This document shows, piece by piece, positions 4,261 through 52,196 of a stretch of 64,000 nucleotides of DNA (position 1 is the first letter of the stretch; every line of letters begins with the position of its first letter). The translations under genes were made by a program, and so were the position numbers. This DNA is from Sipunculus nudus. Lineage: Eukaryota > Annelida > Sipuncula > Golfingiida > Sipunculidae. A model generated the notes under the pieces. The model saw only the letters and a list, made by a program, of their open reading frames with translations. It made no database searches and was not told where the DNA came from. The stretch covers positions 54,324,917 to 54,388,916 of the forward strand of contig CM049319.1 in the NCBI GenBank assembly GCA_026874595.1. Direction: 5' to 3'.

Positions 4261-4297
4261 TTTCGTGTGTGTATGTGTGTGTGTGTGTGTGTTTTGT

Positions 4298-4708
4298 GTG
4301 GAGGTAACCACCTCCATTCTTTAATGCTGACTTATCTAATTCTTTAACTAAGTAGGTTCATGTGCAGAGTTTCCATTTCGATTTGAGATTACTTGACAGG
4401 GTGGTAGCACTCGCTTCCTATCAATTTTTTTTCTTTGTATCCTGGAGTCACCCAGGCCCGGTATCTACCGCACCTGCGGGTCCTGGGTGTGTAATCATCC
4501 TCATTGCTGGGTCATAACACTGAGGTAACCCCTTAAGACGCACTCGTGAGTGATACACGGTTGTGGGGCTCAGCTTCCCATTTAGCCTGCAGAGCGCTCA
4601 CCCTTGGTGGGGGCCGACCGTCAAAAACCTCACCGCCTCGGCTGAGATTCGGACCCACGATCTTCCGGCTTTGAGTACTGCGCTCTACCCCTAACCCCAA
4701 AAGCCGGC
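4298..4708 (-). mobile_element. tRNA-derived SINE, copy 1
   Basis: Nearly full length. The tail end reads GGAGGTAACCACCTCC, the core matches copy 5, and the head ends AAGCCGG. The A box is damaged (CTACCCCTAACCCC on the + strand). No clear target duplication; a GT microsatellite abuts its tail. Confidence 0.7.
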
Positions 4709-7304: not shown

Positions 7305-8140
7305 CTGAAAGGGTTTGGATGCCATTCCAGTGTATATTATGAACACTCTATCCTGAGGATTAGCCCAGCGCCTCCCGACTCAAGTATTTTTCAGCTTTAC
7401 CAATAAAGCAGAACAAGTTAGCAATTCCCCACTACAAAACAGCTTGAATTTCATGCGTTGCCTCGATGCAGCAAATATCGGGTTATCATAGTCTGTTCAA
7501 CAAATGGTTGGCCCAAAGAAATCGGATGATTATTCTTCAACAGTCATAAGGAGGAGCTATAAATAGCTTTGCTTAATCAAGCTTCCCTTTAAGTGGCCTA
7601 TTCCGGTATCTGACTTTTATTAACTTTAGATAATCCCTTGAACATTCATAAAAAACAGGAGGGAAAATGCCGATCCCACCTCACATATAGGCTGTTCGTT
7701 TTGTTAATATCCACCTAGTTACAACATGTGGCGCGCCAAAATAATCCAGTATCATTAAACAAAGACATCTGGTGGAAAAACAGATGAACCATAGATTTGC
7801 AATGGGTGTTTAGCATTTAGTGACCTTTCATTTCAGCACATATGCAACCTTCTACATCATCTTACATATTTTGTTTGTCAAGGTTGCTGATAAAAACAGC
7901 TTGAAGATACCCAAACAAATCCATCGGTCATTGAGGCTTTCTAAGACCATTTTCTAAAAGGAATTATCTAGAGTTCCTTAATATTCAATCAGAGTTAAAC
8001 AGGAATAACATAATTTAAGTCCAGAATTTATGAAAAAAATTATAGACCAGCTTCAGAACTTTCATTTTTGTCACATCTTTTTCGAAGGGTGGAGTTTTAT
8101 TTCATAAAGTACCTAGCATGATCAATTTTTAAAGATTGTT
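7304..8140. other. Intergenic, nothing recognised
   Basis: No frames or repeats identified. Confidence 0.4.
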
Positions 8141-8148
8141 TTTTTTTT

Positions 8149-8548
8149 GTGGTGGTAACCGCCCCCGTTTTTTAATGCTAGCTTAACTTTAAGTATATGT
8201 ACATCTGCAGAATTTCATTCCGATTTCGTGCTGCGTTACAGGTTAGTATCACACGCTTATTCTCATTTCAAATCCTCGTGTTAAACCAGGCCCGGTAACT
8301 ACTGCACCTGCGGGCCCTAGGTGTGTAATCGTCTCCATCGCTGATTCATACCACCGAGGAACCCCCGAGAGGCACACTCGTTTTATGAGCGATACACGGC
8401 CGTTGGGCACGGTCTTCCAATTAAGCCTGCAGAGCGCTCACCTCGGATGGGGCCGGCCGTGAAAAATTTAACCGCCACGGCTAATATTCGAAATCACGAT
8501 CTCCCGGCTTTGAGAGTCCTGTGCGCTACCCCTGAGCTACATAAGCCG
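8149..8548 (-). mobile_element. tRNA-derived SINE, copy 2
   Basis: Starts in a T-run then GGTGGTAACCGCCCCC. The A box region is intact (CTACCCCTGAGCTACATAAGCCG on the + strand). More diverged in the core than copies 1 and 5. Confidence 0.7.
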
Positions 8549-11032: not shown

Positions 11033-11385
11033 TTTTTTTTGGTGGAGTTATGCTAGCTTAACTATATGTGGTATGTACTGCTGTAGAGTTCCATTCCGGT
11101 TTCGGTCCACGTGACAGGGGCTTACACTGTCAACCAGTTTCGGTGTACCACTCCTGCGGGTCCTTGGTGTGTGTCCTCCCCTTTGCTGGGTCATAACACC
11201 TAGGAACCCCCGAAAGGCGCATTCGTTTGTGAGAGAAACACGATGGTTGGGCAAAGTGTCCTCATTAAGCCCGAAGAACGCCCTCCCTGGGTTGGGACCG
11301 ACCGTGAAAAATCACACCACCTCGGCTGAGATTCGAACTCCCGATATCCCGGCTCTGAATCAAGTCCTCTACCCTACGGAAGCTG
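11033..11385 (-). mobile_element. tRNA-derived SINE, copy 3 (decayed)
   Basis: The B box (GATTCGAACTCCCGAT on the + strand) and core (CCTGCGGGTCCTTGGTGTG) remain. The A box is degraded and the tail end is shortened. Confidence 0.6.
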
Positions 11386-20595: not shown

Positions 20596-20911
20596 AAGAC
20601 AATGCTGACTTAACTACGTACATGTTCATCTGCAGAATTCCATTCCGGTGTCGGACTACATGATAGGGCAGAATCACACGCCTCCTTTCGTTTTAAATCC
20701 TGTCGTCAACCAATTAGCCCGTTGACTACTGCGCCTGCGGGCCTTGGGTGCGTTATGGGTGTTTGGTCATACCACCCGGGAACCCCCGAAAAGCACACTC
20801 GTTTGTGAGGGAACCACGGTCGTTGGGCACGGCCTTCCCATTAAGCCTGCAGAGCGTTCACCCTGAGGTGGGTGCCGACCGTGAAAATTCTCACCGCCTC
20901 GGCTTAGATTC
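20596..20911 (-). mobile_element. tRNA-derived SINE, copy 4 (head truncated)
   Basis: Tail and core match copy 5. The sequence diverges just after CGGCTTAGATTC, so the B box is interrupted and the A box missing. It lies between the two exons of the unidentified gene, in its intron. Confidence 0.6.
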
Positions 20912-35064: not shown

Positions 35065-35314
35065 ATGTCGTCTTGCAGTAACTCATCCCGCGGAGAGGTA
35101 CAGATGACGACGGGGGCAGTGGCTGAGTGCTCCATCTTACTGCTCTTGTTGACGCTGATACTGGCTGGGAATACTATTGTTTATCTCAATACCAAGAAAG
35201 CCTTCAATCGTGAGAACCACAACGCTACATGTCGTCTTTGGCGGGCGTTGTCTGTGGTTGGCGCCACTGGAGGTACCATAAATATATGTGGACATGTGTC
35301 TACAAAACTTGCAG
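35065..35314 (+). CDS. Receptor exon 1 (N-terminus, TM1, TM2)
   Basis: Encodes residues 1-83 plus one base of Gly84. The extracellular N-terminus is short and Ser-rich, with one N-glycosylation sequon (N-S-S), then a Leu-rich TM1 containing G-N-T. A perfect donor (GCAG|GTAAGT) ends it in phase 1. TM2 lacks the usual LAxAD motif, which is unusual. A second in-frame ATG lies 13 codons downstream and could also serve as the start. Confidence 0.8.
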
Positions 35315-38300
35315 GTAAGTAGAATATTTTTCAAAGACTTTATACACGTAATTCTACATAAACATATCCTAGTGGGTTGTAGTTCTGAAAGGAGTCCGAA
35401 ATCAAACATCCATATTGATCTTTCATTACTTATTCAGTTTTTAATTATATACGCGACTTTAATTTGTTAATTACAAACATAAATACAGTGTATTTAAATA
35501 CAAAGTCATTTCAACTTTAAATATGGCAGTTATTTTTTTTTTATTTTAAATGTTCCGTTGCAGTATGTCGCCATGGTAACAAATACTCGTATGAGACATA
35601 TTTCATGTATGTAATGATGAAATTAGCAATTATCTTGATAAAAAATTCGATAATAATAAAATAATAAACATTCAAATCATTTTATGTTACAATAATACCT
35701 TACCATTAGTATTGCTAATATGATGCTCAAATTTTCAATATTATAATAACGGTCACTACGATTAGTTTATGGATTATTTATATTAAAATGCATGTATACG
35801 GTTTCGACTGAACATTTTGTTGATGCCTTTGCCATTAATACAATCTACTGTCTATTACACGTTCTCAGATTCACTTTCATTGTTAATAACAGAAACAACA
35901 GGGACCAAATGAAAACACAACCAAGCTTTATGTGCTACCCCGATCACACTTATTTGAATAACAGAGAAAAAGCTCTCAGAGACCACAAACACCTCCACCG
36001 ACATTTTATTATCACCAGATCCGTAAAATTACCAAAATCATGAACACAGGTTTTATTTTGTTACGCCAGCGCAAGTATTATATTAATCCAAGCCGAGAGA
36101 AATGTGTCACGGTTCACCAAGTCCACAATTTCCTCAATGTCAACTCAAGCAACCTCCCCATTTCCCTCTATTCGGCCCTAATTAGATCGAGCAGAGGATA
36201 CCTAAACCTGCAAATATGGTGGAAACTTTCTGAATTGATGCTATCTTTCATTGGAAAAAGAGTCCTTTAACACACTGAATTTGTCCAATTTGCCTGCAAA
36301 ATAGTAATGGATCGTTCCTTGGCGTCTTAATGTATCCCTTCCCCAAAATGCCTCAAAAATTTTACATGAGGTTTAAAGTAAAGCTAATAAAAGACAAACT
36401 GATCAACAGCGGGTTAAACATAATCTCCTTGTGGGGCTTAAGAAAAATCACGTTTATAAAGTTCTCATAGCCACCTGAGGATTGCCAAGGCACGTCGAAA
36501 CCAATTCCCTCCCCATTTAGCCATGTTTTTTATATATGTCCAGAAGGTGTTGTCAGAATACTGGTTAATGAGGTCCAGGCTATGGTATTTCGTGTATGTA
36601 CCATATGAACGCCTTAGTTGTTGTCTCAGGGGTACACATATGAATTATTTGCCAAATACAAGCACATTTATCTCCCTGATTGCCTTTGCCAGGACAGTAG
36701 CCCCCCCCCCCTATGCGTTCATTCCGTGTGTGTGTTTGTTTGTGTGTGGCTTTGTTCACGATCTTCAACGGAATCTCATGACATTTGCAGGACATTTCGG
36801 GAATGGGCCAATGAACAACCGATCAGGTATTGGTAAGGATCTAGCACATGATCCGGAATATTATCGAGGAGTACTCACAAATGTATAGCCACTTATGCAC
36901 GAATGAACCTTAGAATATGGGCCGAATAAGTGAATGTAAACACGGTTTAAGGAGCATTCTACAATAGGGATCCTTAAACGCAAATTTCTAGTTCTTTCAT
37001 GGTAAATAATCAGATTATGTAAATATAGAGCGTCTCCTAGTTTTCCGGTAAAGCTGTTTATCGAAACATTTTTTAATCACTTTTATTGGCTTAGCAGGGT
37101 TCCAAGGCATCCTTGATTAGAGGAAACATGCCACATGAGTTTATAATCAGTTGACATAAACCTGACATTAATGTGTCAAATCATGAAAAAGCTGATTGAA
37201 TTCGATTGGCCGGAAAATTATCAGCCCTTTAAATTTCAGTTAAGCGTATCGGAACTAGTTGATAAGTTTGAGTGTGGGCTTTAAATATGGAAATCCCTCT
37301 TTTACTCTCTGATGACACATCACGAATGTATGAATAGACCTACAATATACTATAGTACCAGTGTCGTAGTTACATCATGTTAAATGCAATAGCCAGGAGT
37401 AAAACTTTATGTGCTTAAGTATAAAATTTTTCCTCGATTTTTTAAATCCATCTGTTAAACCTTTGAGAACCCCAAGCATTTATGTCGATGTTTGGAACCA
37501 GGCATTGGCTCGGCGAAATGTTTTAATAAAACAATCAATTGAATGTTATTACATTTTTCCGGCAAATGATTACTGAAAGATATTGATGATGTATTTGCTA
37601 GATAAACTGTAACATTCATCGGCTTTTTCGCACCTGGCAGCAAAGCAAAAAAAAAGGATATAAACAAAAATAGGCAAAATTAGATTGCCTGTTTCAGCTT
37701 AACAAAAACTTCCCTTAAACCTTAAGGTTTTTTTCGAGATATCGGGTTATGCATTACACAAGAGGAAATGTCGTAAAATTTTGCGTAAAAGGAGACATAT
37801 GCCTTGAATTTCATCACAGATTTGCCCTACCATAGAATTATCACAACAGGAGATGAAATTAGGATATTTCCTGACTAAAATAACAAATAAAAAGTGACCT
37901 GTCAACATTAATTCCTTCTCCCACGGGAGATCAATTAAAAAGGTCAGTTTTATTTTGGAATGATTGATCATAATTTTCGCCGAGAACCATAAATTATATA
38001 AAAGTATATATCCCGTAGAGACCAAACGTGTGCATGTTCTCGAGAACGATAACACGTTAATTTGAATGGGCCATTCATCTGTATCAGAGATGTATTCACT
38101 GGGGGCACCTTAATATCGAAACAGTTCCTATAACGAATCGCTAAATTAATATAATAGGGTTCTGGTGAAAGTTTATAAAATAGTCCTCTGCAAAGGTTAC
38201 ACCCTTTGAATTTGTCATAATTATTGTGAACACCCCAAGCAAGTGACATATTTTGAGTAGAAAAATAAGGGATAACATTTTCGAATATTAGAAGCCAAAT

Positions 38301-38820: not shown

Positions 38821-41321
38821 CCAGAGTTTACTTTGTGCTGGATCAAGGTCCATGTAAATCTTAACGATCTGCTTGACCGTGTCTATATATACATATATAT
38901 ATATAAATTTACAATATTTTATGCAAAATCTGCTACAACACATAAAAAAACATCTTGTAACTCCTTTTCTATTCGGCTCCCAATACAATTTTTATTGTTT
39001 ATCACCTCATCTTTAGACTTATTAAATATGACCCCTCTGTATGTAGTTCCTGAAAGGTCTGTTAAAGAAACCCATAACTTATCAAATTCCATTAATTTCT
39101 CACATTGTAAACACAAATGTAAAAACTGAGTCAATGTTGGTGTGTTTATAACATATATTCAAATCATTTTCTGTTGATGGAACCGTTAGAAATTTTATCA
39201 GCTTGCGTATTTTAACTTTGTGTAATTTTCTTCGTTTGACTATATTATGCCCTTTGCATATTTAAGTACCTGATAGAGTCACCCTTCACTTCTAACGATA
39301 CAAAATCGTTCTTGAATTGTGTATTCATTATGCGTCCTTTAATTATACGCTTCCAATGTTAATTATCTGTGAAAGTGCATTTGGTAATATATTCCTGTAT
39401 ACATGTAATACATTTTCTAATTCATATACATGTATATGACAAACATTGATAAAATGCGGAACAAACCTTTTAGTTTCAAAATCATCTTGCATCAAGAGGA
39501 ATTTAGACGATCTGTATGTAAATATAGTTTTGGTTGGTGGATGTATACCTTGTTTAACAATTCTGTAAATGAATCTTAGTTAAATATGACATGTCAGCGC
39601 AATCATATCACACCAAGCAATAAAACCTCCCCATGAAATCTAACCTTAACGCCTTAAATCACTTTAGCTGCATAATTCTGATTTCTGTTAAACATTCGTA
39701 TCTCTGTCATATCTTAATTTGACCGAAGCTCAGCTTCATGTAGCATTGATGGTAGAGACAACTTCTCCGTCAAGAGGGAGAAGATAGTTGGGTTTAACCC
39801 TGGCTCCATAATTCCTGCCCTAGATAGTGCAGCTAACAAAGATTTGCCCTTTTCACACGTGGGTTCAGTTCTTGTTGTTGAGATAAATGATGCTGTTAAT
39901 TCTATTCCAAGATGAAAAACACTTTAGATTTTCTCGGTTATATTATTACCCAAACGAAATGTCTTTATCACTCTAATTGTTACTGGGTGCTGCACCATGG
40001 TCCATGTAAAATTAACGGTCTGACATGGTCCAAGTAAACATAACGGTCTGATCGACCGTGCTTTTATATATATAAATTTGGCAATTTGGCTCCATCGTGA
40101 ACTTTTACCTGTTCAACATATTTTAATATTCACTTCGTTCATCATCACTAGCCAATCAAACATCGTTTTTGCGCGTCATATGATTTCGGTAGTGACATCT
40201 GCATTAGTCATTTTAACATATACAAAGGGGGCGCAACCCTAGCAGTTACGTTCACTACTTTAAGGTACATATTTAAATCATCAACATTAACTAAATACGG
40301 CACTACTAAATTTTCATTTTAAACGCCAGCGGATGTCATCTAGCTTGGCACACATGGACTTCAGACATGTCCGATAAGGGTCCAGTTATTCTACCTGAAA
40401 TTAGAGTAAAAACACGAGGCTCGATGGATTGCACTGCACGGCTGAAGATTAATTACAACTGTCGCCACCAATCGGCAGCTTCTGAAATTTATGCCTATGG
40501 CCTGGTATGCATTCAAAACTGCATGGTTACAATTTCGTGGTAACAAAGTTACCTTGAAAATCGCGAATTTGAAGCCATGACAAATAAGAACTCAACCACA
40601 GTATATATAATATACATATGTATTTTTCTATATTTTGTTCCGTAGGTTACTGGGTGTTCGGACATGATTTCTGTCAGTTTCGCGGCCTGACTGTCCGTGC
40701 CTGTATGTATTTTTATATATTTGTTCTGTAGGTTACTGGGTGCTCGGCCATGGTTTCTGTCAGTTTTACGGTCTGACCGTCTGTGCCTTCGTTAGCTGGT
40801 GGATCTGGCTCCTCGTCTGTATCGCTATGGAAAGGTCAGTAAAGGTCAAATGTCAAATTCTAAGTCAGACCCCCCCCCCCCCCAACAACACACACATACA
40901 CATCTGTTTTCACTAGATTAAACTAGCAAAAATAACGTACGAAACCTGAACACAGCAGACGACATTTGCACGCATTGCGCATGCTCCTTGGAAAGAGATC
41001 TATAGATAATTATTGCTGATGATTTTGTGACAGATTTAATTGATATTTTGAAAGTATTGATGAAATTCAAGGTTATATATTCAATTCTATTAGGTATTTA
41101 AAAAGCCGTTATGTGTCATTCAGCCCTTTGATACAATAACAGCCCAAAGCGGACAGTGATAACTACAATTGCCTAAACTTCGGTGGTTTGAACTGTAAGA
41201 AAAGCAGCGTTCTCACAGATTAATTTAATTATTGTTTTAGTAATCATTTTGCAGTTTTCAGTTAAACCTTGCAGGACTACACTTCGGTCAAATCGGTTCG
41301 ATTTTATATCCTGCCTTTCTG

Positions 41322-41369
<48 letters not shown>

Positions 41370-44300
41370 AGCTCTATTGATCCCATAAGTTGATTCGAAA
41401 AGAATTTCACTTATCTGTATGAATTCCTCTGACATAAAACTATTATTTAATAACTATAACAAATAGAGCGTTTCATAGAGAACAACCCTATTGTCTTGTT
41501 GGGCGCGCAACAAATAATTGTTTTATCATTGATTGGCCCAATCTCTATAACTTCTTATACAGCGGGGTACCAGTCTTACGATATATTTGCAGGTTTTTGA
41601 AGACTTTCCACCCAGAGGACCACCCATCTTTATTCTCAAAGACAAACCTTTGGATCATCGTGTGGGGGACCGGTCTGGTGGTGTCAGCCGTTTATCTAGG
41701 TCCTACATACGGCTGGGCTGAGTATTCGTCGTTCTGGGGTATGTCTTGTTCATCAATAGAGAGCACTTAGAGAGAGCATGCCTCCACCAGCACAAAACGT
41801 TATAACTGAAAATTGCGGATTAAGAAAATGTCGTTAGCTTACGATTTGGTTATTCCATCTTCAAAAGAATTCCATGATGATATAAATTTTGCGGGTTTAG
41901 CTGAGTCAGACACATAGAAAAGTTTAATAAATGTTCAGTTTCACATATTGTTCACTATTTCCCTCATATTATACTATTATAAAATTTTTTTTCAATTTAA
42001 CTTAAATTTTCATAATCAAGACTCAAAACTTAGACTTTACACAAAATGTATTTTAGAACCTTTCCATGCGAAAGAAATGCTCTGTCAATGTTTCCTTATA
42101 GTGCATAGATTAAGATTACTCACCAATATTAAAAAAAATATAATATATATATTAAACATAAGTATTGAGGATGATTATTGCGATATGGCTTTATTTACAT
42201 TGTTAACGCGAATATTAAATTACATTTTACGCTCCTCTTCTTTATCTTAAATTAATCGTCATTATATCGTTAACTGGCCCACAGTAATTGACATTTCTAC
42301 CGATTGATATGTTTATCACATTTATAATAATGAAGTCTTTAATTTTTGGATAGTGGATAATAATGATGAGATTATTACTATTCCAACTGACCGAGTCCTT
42401 TTTTTCAGGTGCTGTTGAAATGACCGTTGACATCAATGCTACTGTGAACGCAGGCTGGCAACCGGAAGTAGTACCTGTTTTACAAAATCTTCTGGCTTCG
42501 TACACTGATCCAAACAGGCGAGCGCGCATGGTGATACACCTTCAAAACTACTTATCTATATATGGACCTACAATTACAAGAAAAGGGACTTTTAATGGCT
42601 CAGTTCTCGTGATACCGCTTCAGTTTTCCACACAATGCGGATTAAACCATTTCCTTCAAGACCTGGCGCACGGAAATATTACGGACGTCTTTTCAAGTAT
42701 ACTGTTATGGAAGAGTCTTGCCAATAATTCGATTCCGTCGAACTTAACGCTCTCCTTGTCCGTCTCTGAAGCTGCTGTGAGACGCTATGAAGACATGTTT
42801 CTTGTTTACCAAGGTAAGAGGTTGTTATGTTATCAGTTTTTACAATGCAGTCTCTGAAACATGAAACAATTTAATGCTCTAAGTAATAGACAGTGCGCTT
42901 AATGATCATCTGCAGTGCAAGGTTTGTCAAATGGAATTCAGTATTATCCAGACGTTCAGACAGGTGACTCCATGTTATATTAAAGGTATTATATTAACTT
43001 TTGTCACTTAAAAAAAAGTTCGGTTGCTTTTGTCAATATAACAGACCCGAATACTCTATTAGGCTAATGCATGTAAGGGCGCTGTATAAATACAGTAAAA
43101 ACATTTATAACATATTACTTCTGCTAATAGTGATAATAACTAGAATACGGGTAGTCGACAAGCGACTATGTATATCCGCCGAAATCAGAGTGGGTCGGTG
43201 AAGTGAGCCTTGGATTGAGTGGCAAGGGGAAATAGAGTGAGGTGTGTTGCATAATAGCATGGATGTCTGCAGCCGAAAATTGTATAAGTAGGTTGCGCAA
43301 CCTACCACAAAATCCAGAAAGCTGTCCAAGTTGAATACACATGCAAAATTTTAGGCAGGTAAGTCAAACCACTACTTGTATATGAGTGATTTTATCCCGC
43401 AGCAGACAAACATAAGGACGCTGTGCAAAAATGGTGGCAGGTGGCGCCACCAATTTTGTATATGATTAAGAGCTATGTACGGTCTATACACATGCAAAAT
43501 TTCAGGGGGACATGTCAAACCAGTCCTGAGATATATGCCTGAATGTCTGCAGCGTAAACATAAATTTAGGTGGCGCCACCTTCCACAAATTCGGGAAATC
43601 TATCCAAGATGCAAAATTAAGGCAGCTTTGTCAAACTGCTGCCGAGTTATGAGTGATTTTATCCCACGCAAGACAAACAGACGGATCCTGTGCAACAATG
43701 GTTTTGTGTATGATAAAGAGCTGTGTGAGATCTATACACATGCAAACTTTCAGGGGGATATGTCAAACGGTTCCCGAAAAATGAGCTTGGATGTCTGCAG
43801 CGTAAACGTGAACGTAGGTGGCGCCACCTGTCATAAAACCAAGAAAGCTGTCCAGGATGTATAAACATGCCAAATTCCAGGTGGATACGTCCAACCAATG
43901 CAGATACTTTTAAATGCAACCAGTTTAACTAGTTATGAATTGAAACGGCAAGTCATCGATATAATCAGGTAATTATCCTATAAATGTTTAATGAGTTTAC
44001 ATGATGCCAGTCGCAACTTGTACGGTAACTTAGCGGTCATGAAAACAAGCATTCACCCTGAACCGATAGGTTGTGAATTGAGTGGTCACGACAGACATGC
44101 CGTTAACTGAACTATAATGACCAGTACCACCACTATACATGAATATCAGCGTGCCTAGCCAATAAACTTAACATCGGCTTATGCTTAAGGAATATGGACA
44201 AAAGAGAGCTTGTGAATAAAAAAATCAATCCCCGTCTCTGTAGTGACTGTAAATTTGTTTTAGGTTTCCATGGCAAAGCTGTCAATCACGGAAAACCTGT

Positions 44301-47300
44301 GAGATTTTCCGATCAGAAACCCATCATATATGCAAGAATATTTATCATTTTAATTACTTGGTTAGATTAATTCGAAGTTACACGATGCTCCTCATTGAGA
44401 CTTTGGACCCAGTTTTTGATATGACTCTTTCTGTCATGTTACAGTGACATGTAAACTCTCTAACCTTCAGAGGGAAAACTCCCGACGAGAATTCACTGAC
44501 ATAATTTTTGTGTTTTCACGTACGCACATTTCCGACATCCTGTTGGTACAGATTAATTTAAGCTGCGGTTACCAGGCGCACGGTATGCGGCAAGCGGTAT
44601 GCGAAAAATATATATATTTTTTGCTATATTGTTTTTTTTATCATAAACCGTTCACTGGGCCGGCGGTATATGCGGTGTGCGGAATGCGGTATAAGACACG
44701 CCGTAAAACGGAATTCTTATTGGAGAATTGGATCCGCATACCGCGCAAGTAATATAGCGCTCATGGGCTCTGGTTACCATATGTATGACCTAGGATGCAG
44801 TGTGATCTAGCGGTTTTGATATCATCGGGCCTATGTCGCATAGTTTTAAAAACCACCAAGTAAATGCCCCACACAATTTTATACGACATTCTGCATATTG
44901 CTTATATGCTCTGTATATTTTATACACATTAACATTTGTAAGATTTTTACATGGAGAAGGTTCATCATCACACAAATTAAATGTTTGCTTTACTCAAACA
45001 CCAACATTATTTGCATTTATTTTTCCACAGAATATTTAATGCTATATTTGTATAATCGATCGAGGAAGAAGCATATTCCAATTAACTTACGCCAACCATC
45101 AGCATAATGGCGTGGCTTAACTCCAACAATTATATATCATAGGAATTTTTATTCCGTTTATCAATAAGCTGACACAGCTATCTTGATATAGCTGCATTGT
45201 TATTATTAAGCCAAAGCTTAGTATACTGCTATTAATTCGGTTAGCGCGAAATTAAATATATAAGCTTCGCCAATGAAAATGGTTGAAAAAGTTCCATTCT
45301 AAAAATAACTTATATAAAGCAAAGACGGTGACAATTATAATTTTTGCCTCCGTCAACCTCGGACAGTACTCTTAAATCTCTTGGAACTGAAGCGAAGATA
45401 TCAGCTAATCAGCTACCCTCCGAGGCCTGGAGAAAAATAGGGGAAACACTGGCGATATAAAAGGTTCCAATGGCGGGATGCCCTGCAATGGGACGACGAT
45501 TATATACCAAGAAAATGATAATGTAATTAGTCAAAGTTTCGAGTGGTGTTGATCTTGTGCTTTGAAAAGAGAATAATATATCGCGTGTCTATCTAGCAGA
45601 ATTTAATTTATGTTCGAATAGTAGCGGCAGGATTGTGTAAAATAACAAGCAGAATTTTTTTATATTTTATTTTTTGTTGTTGGAGGTAACCTCCTCCATT
45701 TTTTTAATGCTGACTTAACTAATTCTTAACTAAGTATGTACATCTGCAGAGTTTCCATTTCGGTTTGGGACTACTTGACAGGGCGGTAGCACTCGCTTCC
45801 TATCATTTTTTATATCCTGGTATCACCCAGGCCCGGTTTCTACCGCACCTGCGGGTCCTGGGTGTTTAATCATCCCCATTGCTGAGTCATAACACCGAGG
45901 AACCCCCCAAAGACGCACTCGTATGTGAGTGATACACGGCTGTAGGGCACAGCCTTCCCATTAAGCTTGCAGAGCGCTCACCTTTGGTGGGGGCCGACCG
46001 TGAAAAACCTCACCGCTTCGGCTGAGATTCGAACCCACGATCTCCCGGCTTTGTGCTCTACCCCTGAGCCACAGAAGCCGGTAACAAGCAGAATTTAATT
46101 TATGCTCCAAAATTAGATGTAGGATTGTGTAAAAAAACAAGCAGAATTTAATTTATTTTCGAACTGTGTAAAAACAAGCAGGATTAAATATATGATCCTA
46201 TTGTAGAGGCAGGATTTGCAACAACGACATGAAAAAACTTAAACCTAATAATACGTTCTTTGGACTCGGGTATTAAATTTGGTGATCTGGGAATAAGGCA
46301 AGCATCCATACCTTTTTCGCTGACAAACTTGGGCGAAATAAACAATTCCATTAAATCATCAAATATCCTAACCTGTATTCATACATTCGTACTCCGAAAT
46401 ATCTGTTTAATCAAGCTGGATTTTTTTTAACTTGATTACAAATTCCTACATGTTTCAACCCGATAGACCTACCACAGTTGTCACTGCGTATCTTCTCTCC
46501 TTTTATGTCGGGTATGAAATTTCTGTTTGAAAAATGACACCTCTTTTGTCTTTAAAACAAATACTGCACCTTGGGCCAGGTCGGTGCTACACTGAGGACG
46601 GGTAGGTTAGCAAATCCGCTTCAGTGGAGTCTCATTTAGACACGTCTTACATATCGGCCGCTTCGCGTTTGGGCATTTCGAATACCATCTTTCAGTAGTG
46701 GTTCCAGAGGGGTATCCGGAGGGTCAGCCCCTCCCCCTTTAATGAGTCGAAACAACCTTTTTTAAAGGGTTTCAAATTTTGCGACCTGGCCCCCTCCTTT
46801 TTTTGTTTTTTGTTTTCTTTTAGTCTTCCTCCCTTGGACCCTCCTTTTTCCTAAATCCTGGATCCTCCCCTGGGTATAAATCACACCGATAGACAGAACA
46901 GTCGGTGCCCACGGATGACTTGTTCTACGAAGGCAAAAACGACCCCAGTTAAAGCGCTCTTCAATGAAACGTTAACAATAAATCTCGGCGATATCGGGCA
47001 GTTATCACTCTTATGTGTTTTAGAATACATAATTAGTCTTGTAACCATTGATGACTTCCAAAAAGTCGGTTCTTTTTTAAAATATGTTATATTTCTGTAT
47101 ATTTTCATTTTAAATCGGCATTTGTCTATACGGATTGGAGGTCCAAACATTCGATTTTCACTATATAGAGTTGTGAATATATGATCTATTTTTATTTATT
47201 TATTTTTTGCCTTAATTAACTAAAAGCGTATTATTTCTAAGAATTTCATATAAGAACCTAACTAATGTATATTGCAGTTATAAATCCACTGTAAACTCTA

Positions 47301-49907
47301 AAATTTTGAAAATTGAACGTACCCTAAAAGAATCAGAATATTTCATGTAAATACGATTTTTAACTGAAAGATATGAAATTGATGGGATAAATGTTTTTTT
47401 ATAAAATCCACCTGCTTTTGAAAAATAAGGTTTCCATAATGCACTATATAGAGAATATTGTTAATTTTTAATGTGTTCATTTTAATTAATTGGCCCCAGG
47501 CAGTGAAATGTTAAGGTAAATCTGAAATAATTTTGACACACACTCCTGTGACAGTTCGGAGACATTTACGTTCTGTGTGCCTGGCCAGCGTATCACTTGG
47601 TCTGCTTTTTGTTTCCTTTATAGGATTTCTCCTGAAAAACAACAAAACAACACAATATTTAAAATCTATAGCTAAACCGGCTGTCCAATTAAAAAAATAT
47701 TATTAATATTCAGCCAAATCAAGGGATACTGCTAGTCCTCGGGTAAGTTCCTCCTTTGGTAGAATATCCTACGCCCTATCATCCCGGTATTCATAAGAAA
47801 AGAATATCCAGGAAAAATAAGAGAGTCTGAGAAAACCATGTAAATAAATCAGGTAAATTTTCAGTAATTTGATTAACCCAAAATGATAAAAATGAGTTTG
47901 TCATGTTCAAAAATCAATCTAATGAATGATTTACTCAGATGGCATTTAAAAATATGAATCCCTCTATACAAGGTGTCCCTGGTGAATGCCATTTTATTGT
48001 TTGAATTATCAACTATTGCCAAAAAATCCATTCAAATACTGTAAAAATACAATACATGTTACCACTATGACTACTCTTTATTGTCATGACATTTAAGATA
48101 TATAGAACTTGGAAAACGGGTAAAGAAAATTAAAATGGGTTTCTGAAAATTCATCCAAGTATATTTTTTATGGAATGCTGGGAGCCCTGGCGTTCCAGGG
48201 GAGGCACCAGGTGTAGTCAAGACGTGAACTCATTTAACAGAGAAAATGGCACAGAAAGACACTCTGAAAGACACATTAATGGATCAGTTTTGCGGAGGAC
48301 AATTAAGATTTAAATATGAGACAAACGGATCGTTATCGCTGTTGTAAAGCTCCGGGGAACAGCTAGAGCTTTGTTGCATCTGACGTCTTTGTTGAAACCA
48401 GATGTATTATCTCACGTAATTAAATTTGTAAACGAGGTCCACACAAAACTTGCGTTATTAAGCACTACTTGTGGGTGAGTTACGATTCTAGGGGTGTCAT
48501 CTGTTCGCGGTATCTGGCTGTTTATAGAAAGATAAACTCAGATGTGCTCCTTTATTATGTACAGTAAGAAAATACGAGAAAATGTTTAATTGACGATCTA
48601 CCATGTTTTATATGATGATTGGACATCTCTCCGTTGCTGGGTAGGCATATTCTGCCATTCTGTGGGAATAAACAATAACTGTGTTCTTGAAAAAGTGCAT
48701 ATGAACAACATGAAAGCAAAAGACAATTGTCAACTCATTTTATATATATTTTAAGATAAAATAAACACATAAGACCACATAATATTTAGTTCTACGGACT
48801 CAGGGAACAAATCATATTGTGCGAGACACAATATATACATGGAATTGTGCTCGATTCTTTAAATGGTGTATATGCTTAATACTAAATTTAGTCCAATTAT
48901 TCATGTATTTGTAATTCTTTTCGGGACTTTATGCCATAACACAAATTAGCAACATTCCATTTCACCTGGTCTTATTTGGCAAGTCATACTTTGAGCACTC
49001 TGGGAGACATTCTTCCCATTTTTTTCAAGGTCCCTTTTCAAATATTTTTCACAACATCATTATATCAATTTATAATGCATGCTTCACCTGTATGTCAAAT
49101 TCAGCTGAGCGTCATGGCCAATAGGTCACATGTTTCCCCTTAAATGAACAGGCGTACAGATTAAAATCTCCATAAAAAAAATATTAAACAAATAAAATGA
49201 AAATGTATGACCTTTCTGAACTTGTGTATATGTATATTTGTGTTTGTCTATATGCATGTTTCCTTAGTGAAACAAATACGTAATGCGTATTTTCTTATTT
49301 CACAGGTGTCAGCCTATGCCAGCTGGACTACACGCATGTCAACGAACATGTGACGTCATTCCTTGCTTTTCATGTCATCACCGCCAGCGTAATCCCTTTT
49401 GGAATCATCATATACCTGGCCTGCAAGTACCCCCTGTTGACGCGCATGCGCACTGGGCCTTGTAGGCGGAGGATGTCCCTTCTGGAGCATGTAGAGTGCT
49501 ACACGGATTTAGCGGGGGACAAAGGTGACCCCCTTACATTAACCGTGATTGCGTCTTTTGTGGCCTTAAACAGTTTTTTAATAGTCAGTATTGTATGTGG
49601 AGCTGGAGTAAGAGTCAATAAATATTGGCTGCAGACTTGTTATATGTTCCATTATGCACTGTATACAGTTCCATATTTCGCTTTTCTCTGGAGAACAAAA
49701 GCTGTTTTGCTCAACGTCAGATTACCCAGTGTAAACCGTGCCATCGCAGCGGCTGCCGACTCGGCACCACGTGACAGTGTGAAAGAGAGGCCGCCAGTCG
49801 CCACGAGGAGGCGCTCTACTTTAAACTTTGGCAACAAACTTATGGCGCTGTATATGACGCAAAAACGTTACAGCTACCAGAAAGCTACATGTGAGAGTAT
49901 ACTGTAG
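35065..49907 (+). CDS. Opsin-like class A seven-transmembrane receptor with a large inserted loop-2 exon (5 exons, 501 aa)
   Basis: Joined exons are 35065-35314, 40732-40834, 41593-41738, 42409-42813 and 49306-49907. All introns are GT-AG, with phases 1, 2, 1 and 1. The product should be a plasma-membrane G-protein-coupled receptor; its ligand is unknown. TM1 is about residues 19-41 (N36 = 1.50), TM2 58-80, TM3 93-118 (C93 = 3.25, then E117-R118-F119), and TM4 136-155. TM5 is about 318-340 (P332 = 5.50), TM6 378-402 and TM7 408-430 (P424 = 7.50). Loop 2 carries G158-W159-A-E-Y162 before the inserted module and C306-Q-L-D-Y310 after it, an opsin-like pattern; C306 should pair with C93. Position 7.43 is H417 instead of the retinal-binding Lys, TM6 has no CWxP and NPxxY is degraded, so it is not a light-sensing opsin. 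The tail (431-501) is basic. The start is the ATG at 35065, because an upstream stop lies at 35017-35019 with only a TTG between. A poly(A) signal lies 130 bp after the stop. The family is unnamed; class A membership is firm. Confidence 0.85.
36700..36930 (+). repeat. Dispersed repeat D3, copy b (receptor intron 1)
   Basis: Partner of 12540-12800. It explains the 121-codon frame at 36523-36888, which is therefore not called. Confidence 0.5.
38783..38817. repeat. (TA)n array in receptor intron 1
   Basis: About 35 bp, ten bases before exon-2-like segment C. Confidence 0.95.
38827..38905 (+). pseudogene. Degenerate exon-2-like segment C in intron 1
   Basis: This resembles segment B more than the exon: GTGCTG...AAGGTCCATGTAAAT...TTAACG.TCTG...GACCGTG, followed in both by a short TA run and AAATTT. 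It is open in no frame of interest. Confidence 0.35.
39738..39802 (+). mobile_element. tRNA-like SINE head (candidate)
   Basis: TAGCATTGATGGTAGAG resembles a Pol III A box and GGTTTAACCC a B box with one change. Between them, CTTCTCC (39762-39768) pairs with GGAGAAG (39777-39783), like an anticodon arm. The fold does not close as a functional tRNA, and it differs from the SINE family found five times elsewhere. Confidence 0.3.
39979..40066 (+). pseudogene. Degenerate exon-2-like segment B in intron 1
   Basis: It starts GTTACTGGGTGCT like exon 2 and continues CCATGGT...TGT...ACGGTCTGA, with substitutions and in-frame stops. It contains an internal 28-29 bp duplication (CATGGTCCA repeated). 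No acceptor AG precedes it. It could be an old duplicate of the exon or a repeat that shares its origin. Confidence 0.4.
40646..40702 (+). pseudogene. Truncated tandem copy of receptor exon 2
   Basis: The 5' half of exon 2 and its pyrimidine-rich acceptor are duplicated in tandem, with a period of 86-87 bp (40617-40702 against 40704-40789). The copy reads Y-W-V-F-G-H-D-F-C-Q-F-R-G-L-T-V-R-A, diverged from Y-W-V-L-G-H-G-F-C-Q-F-Y-G. It has an acceptor (CCGTAG) and a usable donor (CT|GTATGT), which would define a 57 bp phase 1-1 micro-exon. Read through, it meets the TAG at 40729-40731. Probably non-functional. Confidence 0.6.
40732..40834 (+). CDS. Receptor exon 2 (extracellular loop 1 and TM3)
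   Basis: Encodes residues 84-117 plus two bases of Arg118. It holds W-V-L-G-H-G-F-C-Q-F-Y-G leading into TM3 and ends in I-A-M-E-R. The acceptor is TTCTGTAG|GT and the donor AAAG|GTCAGT, phase 2. A phase 2 intron inside the Arg codon of the D/E-R-Y motif is a recurrent position in class A receptors, as I recall, which supports both frame and family. A truncated copy of its first half lies immediately upstream. Confidence 0.85.
40835..41592 (+). other. Receptor intron 2
   Basis: A phase 2 intron of 758 bp. It holds a C14 run with CA repeats (40870-40910) and a TA array (41324-41368). Nothing else is recognised. Confidence 0.7.
41324..41368. repeat. (TA)n array in receptor intron 2
   Basis: About 45 bp, roughly 225 bp before exon 3. 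Confidence 0.95.
41593..41738 (+). CDS. Receptor exon 3 (intracellular loop 2, TM4, start of loop 2)
   Basis: The first base completes Arg118 and the last base opens Gly167. It reads F-L-K-T-F-H-P after E-R, as in many class A receptors, then TM4 and the loop start G-W-A-E-Y. The acceptor is TTTGCAG|G and the donor TGGG|GTATGT, phase 1. Confidence 0.85.
41739..42408 (+). other. Receptor intron 3
   Basis: A phase 1 intron of 670 bp. AT-rich, and no repeat or RNA was recognised. An open frame of 100 codons at 41948-42250 is low-complexity and has no splice support. Confidence 0.65.
42409..42813 (+). CDS. Receptor exon 4: symmetric 135-codon insert in extracellular loop 2
   Basis: A 405 bp exon with phase 1 at both ends, acceptor TTTTTTCAG|GT and donor CAAG|GTAAGA. 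It encodes residues 168-301 plus two split Gly codons. It has five N-glycosylation sequons (N176, N229, N256, N272, N278), one Cys (C243) and no membrane segment. It falls between the G-W-x-E-Y and C-Q-L-D-Y halves of an otherwise opsin-like loop 2. Because it is symmetric, skipping it keeps the frame and yields a 366-residue receptor of normal length. I do not recognise its domain with confidence; see the findings for a possible MACPF-core resemblance. Confidence 0.8.
43138..43905 (+). repeat. GGTGGCGCCACC tandem element, direct copy (intron 4)
   Basis: Starts with a hairpin, TAGTCG...CGACTA (43152-43168). Two units of about 280 bp follow, containing GGTGGCGCCACC, GAGTGATTTTATCCC, CACATGCAAA.TTTCAGG and TGTCTGCAGCGTAAAC. 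The 129-codon open frame at 43475-43864 lies inside it and repeats with it, so it is not called. Confidence 0.65.
44560..44750. repeat. Small element rich in GCGGTATGCG
   Basis: GCGGTATGCG at 44594-44603 and its exact reverse complement at 44735-44744 enclose further GCGGTAT/GCGGTGTGCGG motifs and an AT core. Possibly a MITE in receptor intron 4. Confidence 0.4.
45595..46210 (+). repeat. Short tandem array (about 37-54 bp units) split by SINE copy 5
   Basis: Units of the form GCAGAATTTAATTTATG...GGATTGTGTAAAA.AACAA occur before (45595-45657) and after (46082-46210) the SINE. The SINE therefore landed inside an existing array. Confidence 0.6.
45658..46081 (-). mobile_element. tRNA-derived SINE, copy 5, with target site duplication
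   Basis: On the minus strand the element starts with a tRNA-like head: A box TGGCTCAGGGGTAGAGC (46055-46071) and B box GGGTTCGAATC (46026-46036). A body with a conserved CACCTGCGGGTCCTGGGTG-type core follows, then an A/T-rich tail (45658-45685 read in reverse). It is flanked by identical 15 bp TAACAAGCAGAATTT copies at 45643-45657 and 46082-46096. This is the best preserved of five copies, so the others are judged against it. The host site is itself a short tandem array. Confidence 0.8.
49306..49907 (+). CDS. Receptor exon 5 (end of loop 2, TM5-TM7, cytoplasmic tail)
   Basis: The last coding exon, from acceptor ATTTCACAG|GT to the TAG at 49905-49907. It begins G-V-S-L-C-Q-L-D-Y, then TM5 (V-I-P-F-G-I-I-I-Y), a basic loop 3, TM6, TM7 and a basic tail. 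TM7 reads F-H-Y-A-L-Y-T-V-P-Y-F-A-F: the Pro is kept, while the Asn and Tyr of NPxxY are lost. Confidence 0.85.
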
Positions 49908-51480: not shown

Positions 51481-52196
51481 GTCTGTTTTGACACATTAAC
51501 TTACATATCTTCGGAATCGTTTGACCAATCAGGAAAAAAAAATTCACAAATGTAGCTCTTGGATAGCTTTATAACATACATGAAAAATGATGGCGCCACC
51601 TGCAACAATTTTTGCACGGCGTCCGTCTGTTCATCTGCCTTGGGATAAAATCACTCACTGTGCATGTGTATTCATCCTGGTTGGCTTTCTTGATTTTATG
51701 ACAGGTGGCGCAAACCTACTTTCACGTTAAGGCTGCAGACATCCAGGCTTATATCTATGGACTGGTTTGACGTATCCTCCCGAAATCTATAGATCTCACA
51801 TAGCTCTTTATTATACGCACAACTGGTGGCGCCACCTGCAACCATTTTGCACAGCATCCTCTGTTTATCCACCGTGGGATAAAATCACTCATATCTCGGC
51901 AGTGGTTTGACATATCTGCCTAAAATTTTGCATGTATATACATCTTGGGTAGCTTTCTTGATTTTGTGGCAGGAGGCGCCACCTACATTCACTTTCAGGC
52001 TTCAGACATTAAGGCTAATATCTCAGGACTGGTTTGACATATTCTCCTGAAATTTTCCACCTTCATATACACATTTCGGCTGCAGACATCCATGCTAATA
52101 TGCAACACACCTCTCTGTATTTCCCCTTGCCCACTCTGATTTCGGTTTATATACGTAGTCGCTTGTCGACTACCCGTATTCTATCTAGTTATAATA
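51481..52196 (-). repeat. GGTGGCGCCACC tandem element, inverted copy downstream of the receptor
   Basis: The same repeat as at 43.1-43.9 kb in opposite orientation. It shows GGTGGCGCCACC, GGGATAAAATCACTC, GACTGGTTTGACATAT and GCTGCAGACATCC, and ends in the perfect hairpin GTAGTCG/CGACTAC (52155-52173). The left boundary is approximate. Confidence 0.6.

Follow-up and report, generated by a model that had tools for sequence, protein, structure and literature searches.

A Likely Soluble Domain, Encoded by Its Own Symmetric Exon, in Extracellular Loop 2 of a Divergent Rhodopsin-Family Receptor of Sipunculus nudus

Introduction

When animal receptors gain a domain, they usually gain it at the N-terminus. 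Large additions elsewhere on the extracellular face are exemplified by human C3aR, a class A receptor whose second extracellular loop is described as some 172 residues long, as taking part in ligand binding and as predicted to be highly flexible (PMC10518620). Modules on the outside of a seven-helix receptor are also described for adhesion receptors: a crystal structure revealed an SEA domain in GPR126, and GPR110 and GPR116 are reported to bear motifs of the autoproteolytic kind in the loop between strands 2 and 3 of their SEA domains (PMC6954182). The autoproteolytic SEA motif is given as GSxxV, in which x is V or I (PMC9478142). Opsins, for their part, are recognized by lysine 296 (7.43) in TM7, and opsins that are devoid of K296 are described under the names gluopsins and nemopsins (PMC9368030).

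In this article, we detail a receptor gene, R1, found in a window of 64,000 nucleotides (the whole stretch of DNA analysed, C14:54324917-54388916) of the Sipunculus nudus genome, and compare it with these systems; the genome searched for relatives was the window's own (1.43 Gb in 153 contigs). From its sequence, we consider it likely that a soluble domain of some 135 residues, in all probability N-glycosylated, forms a separate unit within loop 2 of R1 and is encoded by a phase 1-1 exon of its own.

The R1 Gene and Its Surroundings

The five exons of R1 (Table 1) join in open frames across introns that are all bordered by GT-AG. We infer that the start codon lies within exon 1, whose donor ranks 3rd of the 3527 GT dinucleotides on the + strand by weight-matrix score. 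A preliminary description of the locus had put the product at 501 aa when exon 4 is included and at 366 aa when it is left out, and the joined open frames bear out both lengths. Exon 4 itself is as described there, a stop-free exon of the size, phase and position listed in the table, in a + strand frame that stays open from 42354 to 42854, past both exon ends. The five N-glycosylation sequons claimed for the module are likewise present, at residues 176, 229, 256, 272 and 278 of the 501-aa form, and no segment reaches a Kyte-Doolittle value of 1.4, so that the module has no membrane segment, as had been stated. It contains a single cysteine. Across the whole of R1, the same hydropathy cut-off of at least 1.4 is passed by five segments only, TM2 and TM7 having been assigned by eye.

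Table 1. Coordinates of the exons of R1 and R2 and of the candidate motif within exon 4. R1 positions are those of the window; R2 positions are those of contig C14.
Feature	Position	Strand	Length	Phase	Content or relation
R1 exon 1	35065..35314	+		ends in phase 1, at CAG/GTAAGT	putative start codon, N-terminus, TM1, ICL1, TM2
R1 exon 2	40732..40834	+	103 bp	1 to 2	ECL1, TM3 with conserved Cys (C93), ER motif
R1 exon 3	41593..41738	+	146 bp	2 to 1	TM4 and first half of loop 2 (GWAEYSSFWG)
R1 exon 4	42409..42813	+	405 bp	1-1	putative loop-2 domain, five sequons, no hydrophobic segment
Codons N-G-S-V-L-V in exon 4	42594..42611	+			N-G-S doubles as a sequon
R1 exon 5	49306..49907	+			second half of loop 2 with conserved Cys (VSLCQLDY), TM5-TM7, C-tail, stop
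R2 exon 2'	C14:28428370-28428472		103 bp	as R1 exon 2	41% identical to R1 exon 2
R2 exon 3'	C14:28447880-28448025		146 bp		46-48% identical to R1 exon 3
R2 exon 4'	C14:28448616-28449029		414 bp	1-1	26% identical to R1 exon 4
R2 exon 5'	C14:28449520-28450082				25% identical to R1 exon 5

Several repeats occur in and around the gene. Directly upstream of exon 2, positions 40636-40731 partially duplicate the opening portion of that exon (59% over 27 aa). Two stretches of intron 1 (38825-38900 and 39975-40075) align with the same portion and have TA-rich runs after them. A small repeat family may have arisen from exon 2 or have affected it. A dispersed repeat is found at 45677-46081, 4294-4707, 8126-8548, 20609-20911 and 11146-11357, each copy 76-86% identical to one in intron 3. 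An internally repeated element lies downstream of exon 4 (43141-43904), with inverted relatives after the gene (51563-52183). Exon 4 itself was ruled out as a repeat, since within the window its DNA matches only itself; the same comparison did pick up repeats elsewhere in intron 3.

A Paralogue with a Matching Exon

A second receptor gene, R2 (C14:28428370-28450082), lies 26 Mb from R1 on the same contig. When exon 4 was used as a genome query, it gave one weak match beyond the window (C14:28448735-28449031, E 0.74, 28% identity), and this match falls in a 180-aa open frame between an exon-3-like and an exon-5-like frame. R1 and R2 agree in the places and phases of their introns over exons 2-5, and the cysteines of TM3 and loop 2 occur in R2 as in R1. 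R2 is known from exons 2'-5', no exon 1 having been found in the 40 kb upstream of exon 2'. It is also the only close paralogue found. Queried against the genome, exon 3' returned R1 and R2 alone below E 0.1. Exons 2 and 3 of R1, queried together, returned R1, R2 and the partial exon-2 copy in the lead, followed by weaker matches, for the most part in long open frames. A 418-aa frame (E 1.8e-4) heads this weaker group, and ten such frames, once translated, look by eye like ordinary class A receptors.

Exon 4' occupies the 1,494-bp gap that separates exons 3' and 5', on the right strand and in the right frame and phase. Its local score against exon 4 is 71, compared with 28.1 +/- 4.9 for shuffles, which did as well in 0 of 5000 trials, a figure that is not a fair p-value because the match had been picked beforehand from the whole genome. 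Among the 343 open stretches of at least 40 aa in the 32.5 kb R2 locus, exon 4' is the best partner of exon 4 (the next scores 41), and in the reverse direction exon 4' as genome query reached exon 4 at E 0.436. Two sequons, at 94 and 103, are carried by exon 4'; they share a region of the domain with the last three of exon 4, at different positions.

The height that a genome-wide best score can reach is gauged by another stretch, L009 (C14:52037800-52038102, minus strand), an open frame of 101 residues of which 28 are 43% identical to exon 4'. With exon 4' its score is 75 (shuffles as good in 0 of 2000), with exon 4 it is 26 (833 of 2000). Its neighbours are an exon-3-like frame of 32 residues and exon-5-like frames of 15 and 19 residues, and we take it for a chance match. 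Since a picked stretch can score this high, the score of the exon 4 pair carries less weight than position, phase and length. The R2 exon owes its credibility to its position, in the gap of a receptor that matches R1 independently, and to its strand, its phase 1-1, its length and its splice sites; such a placement would be hard to reach by chance in 1.43 Gb. Very probably, exon 4 encodes a loop-2 domain that arose before the gene was duplicated.

Six weak genome matches were considered as further members of the family and dropped. Two of them, the exon-5-like L004 and the exon-4-like L009, have no credible companion exons within 40 kb each. The other four were looked at in loci of about 3.1 kb, where L008 and L010 have a stop inside the match and L013 and L014 were set aside as weak.

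Receptor Class

R1 is best placed, by sequence comparison, as a divergent class A (rhodopsin-family) receptor. Without exon 4 it matches Pfam 7tm_1 (cut-off 30.5) at 44.2 bits in one stretch; with exon 4 the score drops to 32.9 bits and the match is split in two. R2, taken without exon 4' and exon 1, reaches 43.5 bits. In both genes the join of exon 3 to exon 5 yields a normal loop 2, and in the 501-aa form of R1 the cysteine pair is C93 (TM3) and C306 (loop 2), between which a bond is predicted. The best solved relatives of R1, with next to nothing between them, are Kumopsin1 (E 2e-7) and the alpha-1A adrenergic receptor (3.5e-7); exon 5 alone found nothing in the PDB at E 10.

NPxxY, a common yet not universal class A motif, is missing from both genes when they are read by eye, the corresponding residues being VPYFA in R1 and NLSLV in R2. 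CWxP and D2.50 are also missing from R1 by the same reading. In TM6, R2 (exon 5') keeps CDVP, which R1 has lost. As CDVP is kept in R2 but not in R1, and NPxxY is gone from both, the signalling of the two receptors may differ. Ordinary signalling by R1 is itself not assured, given the missing motifs and the fact that only five of the seven helices pass the hydropathy cut.

The retinal lysine is absent from both receptors: R1 has a histidine seven residues before the TM7 proline, and R2 a leucine six residues before the TM7 asparagine. The term opsin-like, used for R1 at the outset, thus holds for the pattern of loop 2, through which Kumopsin1 aligns, but has to be qualified for the receptor as a whole, which lacks the lysine and matches the alpha-1A adrenergic receptor nearly as well. 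"Opsin-like loop 2," short of "opsin," is a fair label. With the lysine missing, the receptor may be expected to sense a chemical or a contact and not to act as a photopigment.

Placement and Proposed Role of the Loop-2 Domain

Once exon 4 is taken out, Kumopsin1 aligns through loop 2 of R1 ungapped, in agreement with the proposal that a symmetric exon splits an opsin-like loop. The insertion point lies within a glycine codon (GWAEYSSFWG/VSLC), and only three residues (V-S-L) separate the split glycine from the loop-2 cysteine; in opsins, this point lies close to the turn between the two loop-2 strands. The predicted spacing between TM4 and TM5 is about 159 residues (158-316), compared with 24 in the form that is joined without exon 4.

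We propose that the domain was gained once, when a symmetric exon entered an intron located within the glycine codon of loop 2, and that this took place before R1 and R2 separated, so that it would now be part of the mature receptor of both. The domain may form a lid over the ligand pocket, in a loop still tied to TM3 through C306 and C93; such a lid with its tie retained is suggested by the mere V-S-L between the split glycine and C306, near the turn of loop 2. Its likeliest function would be to recognize a ligand or partner outside the cell or to gate access to the pocket, comparable to the part that the long loop 2 of C3aR plays in ligand binding.

The domain appears to be without a credible solved relative. 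By sequence, exon 4 found in the PDB only a weak match to Centromere protein O (E 1), and a two-sequence profile of exon 4 and exon 4' found no match there. Pfam gave no match for the domain. Searches for relatives of exon 4 returned 4 pattern matches in viral contigs and 55 in prokaryote genomes, none of which was confirmed. A single-sequence structure model of the domain was poor (mean pLDDT 41.6).

Constitutive or Optional Splicing

The preliminary description further held that one gene could make two products, with exon 4 serving as an alternative cassette: a capped form of 501 aa, and a receptor of 366 aa whose loop 2 is normal. The symmetry of exon 4 allows this, since skipping it preserves the frame, and the same symmetry is seen in exon 4' of R2; the skipped form is also the better match to 7tm_1, as given above. 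Set against these points are the splice sites, which were ranked on the + strand with a weight matrix built on consensus frequencies. Both sites of exon 4 rank 12th (acceptor among 3072 AG, donor among 3527 GT), above those of exon 2 (acceptor 205, donor 36) and exon 3 (acceptor 189, donor 80), and R2, a diverged paralogue, retains the exon at the matching place. Strong sites and an exon kept in R2 favour constitutive use. What survives of the claim is therefore that skipping would keep the frame, while optional use finds no positive support; we regard a cassette as unlikely, and exon 4 appears, from its sequence context, to be spliced constitutively.

An Unlikely Alternative: An SEA-Like, Self-Cutting Domain

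A more elaborate reading takes the domain to be SEA-like, with the order beta-alpha-alpha-beta-beta-alpha-beta, and supposes that it may cut itself between G and S of NGSVLV. The receptor would then consist of a piece with TM1-4 and a piece with TM5-7, which the domain and the disulphide between TM3 and loop 2 would keep joined. It is the motif that invites the comparison: GSVLV of R1 resembles the GSxxV of autoproteolytic SEA domains, including those of the adhesion receptors introduced above, though with L as second x it fits only if leucine is allowed, and R2 carries GTVEI in place of GSxxV. In R1, moreover, the asparagine that precedes GS belongs to a sequon, whose glycosylation might prevent the cut. 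The low-confidence model of the domain runs helix, helix, strand, strand, turn at G63-S64, strand, helix, strand, an order that would accord with part of an SEA domain but is without its first strand and fourth helix.

Sequence comparisons do not support this reading. Pfam SEA (PF01390) matches neither exon 4 nor exon 4' at E 10, under conditions in which the MUC1 control scores 49 bits (E 7.6e-13). Pairwise alignments of the domain with SEA domains are no better than those of shuffles, which scored as well in 468 (local) and 306 (global) of 2000 trials with MUC1 and in 1857 (local) and 166 (global) of 2000 with MUC16. An SEA profile was matched as well by shuffles in 139 of 200 trials for exon 4 alone, and for the pair of exons in 53 (local) and 27 (global) of 100. 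Fold searches of the poor model with VIA-align and Foldseek, which exclude nothing, brought up no SEA chain among the 50 matches listed by each.

We accordingly hold an SEA-like fold, with or without cutting, to be quite unlikely, and it serves as a lead only, in view of the sequence tests against it and the absence of the motif from R2. The full proposition, that loop 2 of R1 is a folded, self-cutting SEA-like domain with the core in two pieces (TM1-4 and TM5-7), is highly improbable. Were it true, a cleavage mechanism familiar from adhesion receptors and mucins would have been relocated to the central part of a rhodopsin-family receptor, and pulling on the self-cut cap could release or switch the seven-helix core. 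A literature search found no joint mention of SEA domain, opsin and extracellular loop, which does not establish that the combination is absent from print.

Exon 4 Against Chance

The reading we prefer, that exon 4 encodes a soluble loop-2 domain, presupposes a real exon. A simple filter was applied for symmetric, stop-free, phase-1 segments of at least 300 nt with a YAG acceptor (pyrimidine tract of at least 60%) and a GTRAG donor. On both strands of the real window three segments pass: exon 4, most of exon 5, and 36521-36832. Any passing segment was found in 3 of 200 dinucleotide shuffles of the + strand, one of at least 405 nt in 0 of 200, and in shuffles of intron 3 none passed in 1000. 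Segments like exon 4 are rare in shuffled sequence.

The segment at 36521-36832, a second symmetric phase-1 open stretch (312 nt), lies in intron 1, contains runs of C and TG and has passable splice sites; it is probably due to chance. Used as a control, it ranks 155 (acceptor) and 45 (donor), and the sites of exon 4 are far better.

Composition gives a mixed picture. Codon usage lends exon 4 no support, at -0.066 per codon when the score is trained on the other four exons of R1 (a set that is few in number and membrane-rich); those exons, each left out in turn, score from -0.033 to 0.160. Across exon 4, the true frame is beaten by three of its five alternatives when stops are skipped. The composition of its open frame is protein-like, ranking 4th among the 36 frames of at least 100 codons by best 100-residue stretch.

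That exon 4 is a chance intronic open frame, and its match in R2 likewise chance, is scarcely credible: the second passing segment, the codon usage and the weakness of the genome-wide match, which L009 rivals against exon 4', speak for it, but the match sits at the one place expected in the paralogue, in the same phases and at nearly equal length, exon 4 and exon 4' both have splice-like ends, and at both acceptor and donor exon 4 ranks far better than the control segment (12 and 12 vs 155 and 45). Judged by these features, exon 4 very probably does code for protein and predates the split of R1 and R2.

Comparison with Known Systems

In two diverged genes, R1 and R2, a module with its own phase 1-1 exon is placed between TM4 and TM5, where the loop overlies the pocket. 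If transcripts confirm the gene models, the pair would offer a clean case for studying the control that an inserted domain exerts over access to a class A receptor, and a route to how a lysine-less opsin-like receptor adopted a new task. As the domain has no Pfam match, inserts of this kind can go unnoticed.

Of the adhesion receptors, GPR126/ADGRG6, GPR110/ADGRF1 and GPR116/ADGRF5 share with R1 an extracellular module on a seven-helix receptor, and the GSVVV or GSIVA motif reported for GPR110 and GPR116 is close to the GSVLV of R1 (PMC6954182). Their SEA domain, however, is N-terminal to TM1, whereas the module of R1 lies between TM4 and TM5 and has no SEA match at the level of sequence. Opsins and gluopsins are like R1 in their loop 2 pattern, and lysine-less members exist among them; R1 and R2 differ from them in having a histidine and a leucine, respectively, at the lysine site, in the loss of NPxxY and in the large loop-2 domain. 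In size and description, human C3aR is the closest known counterpart, as a class A receptor with a hugely enlarged loop 2 (about 172 residues as described, compared with about 159 in R1) and a cysteine bridge. Unlike that of C3aR, the insert of R1 would be the product of a separate phase 1-1 exon that has been kept in two diverged genes.
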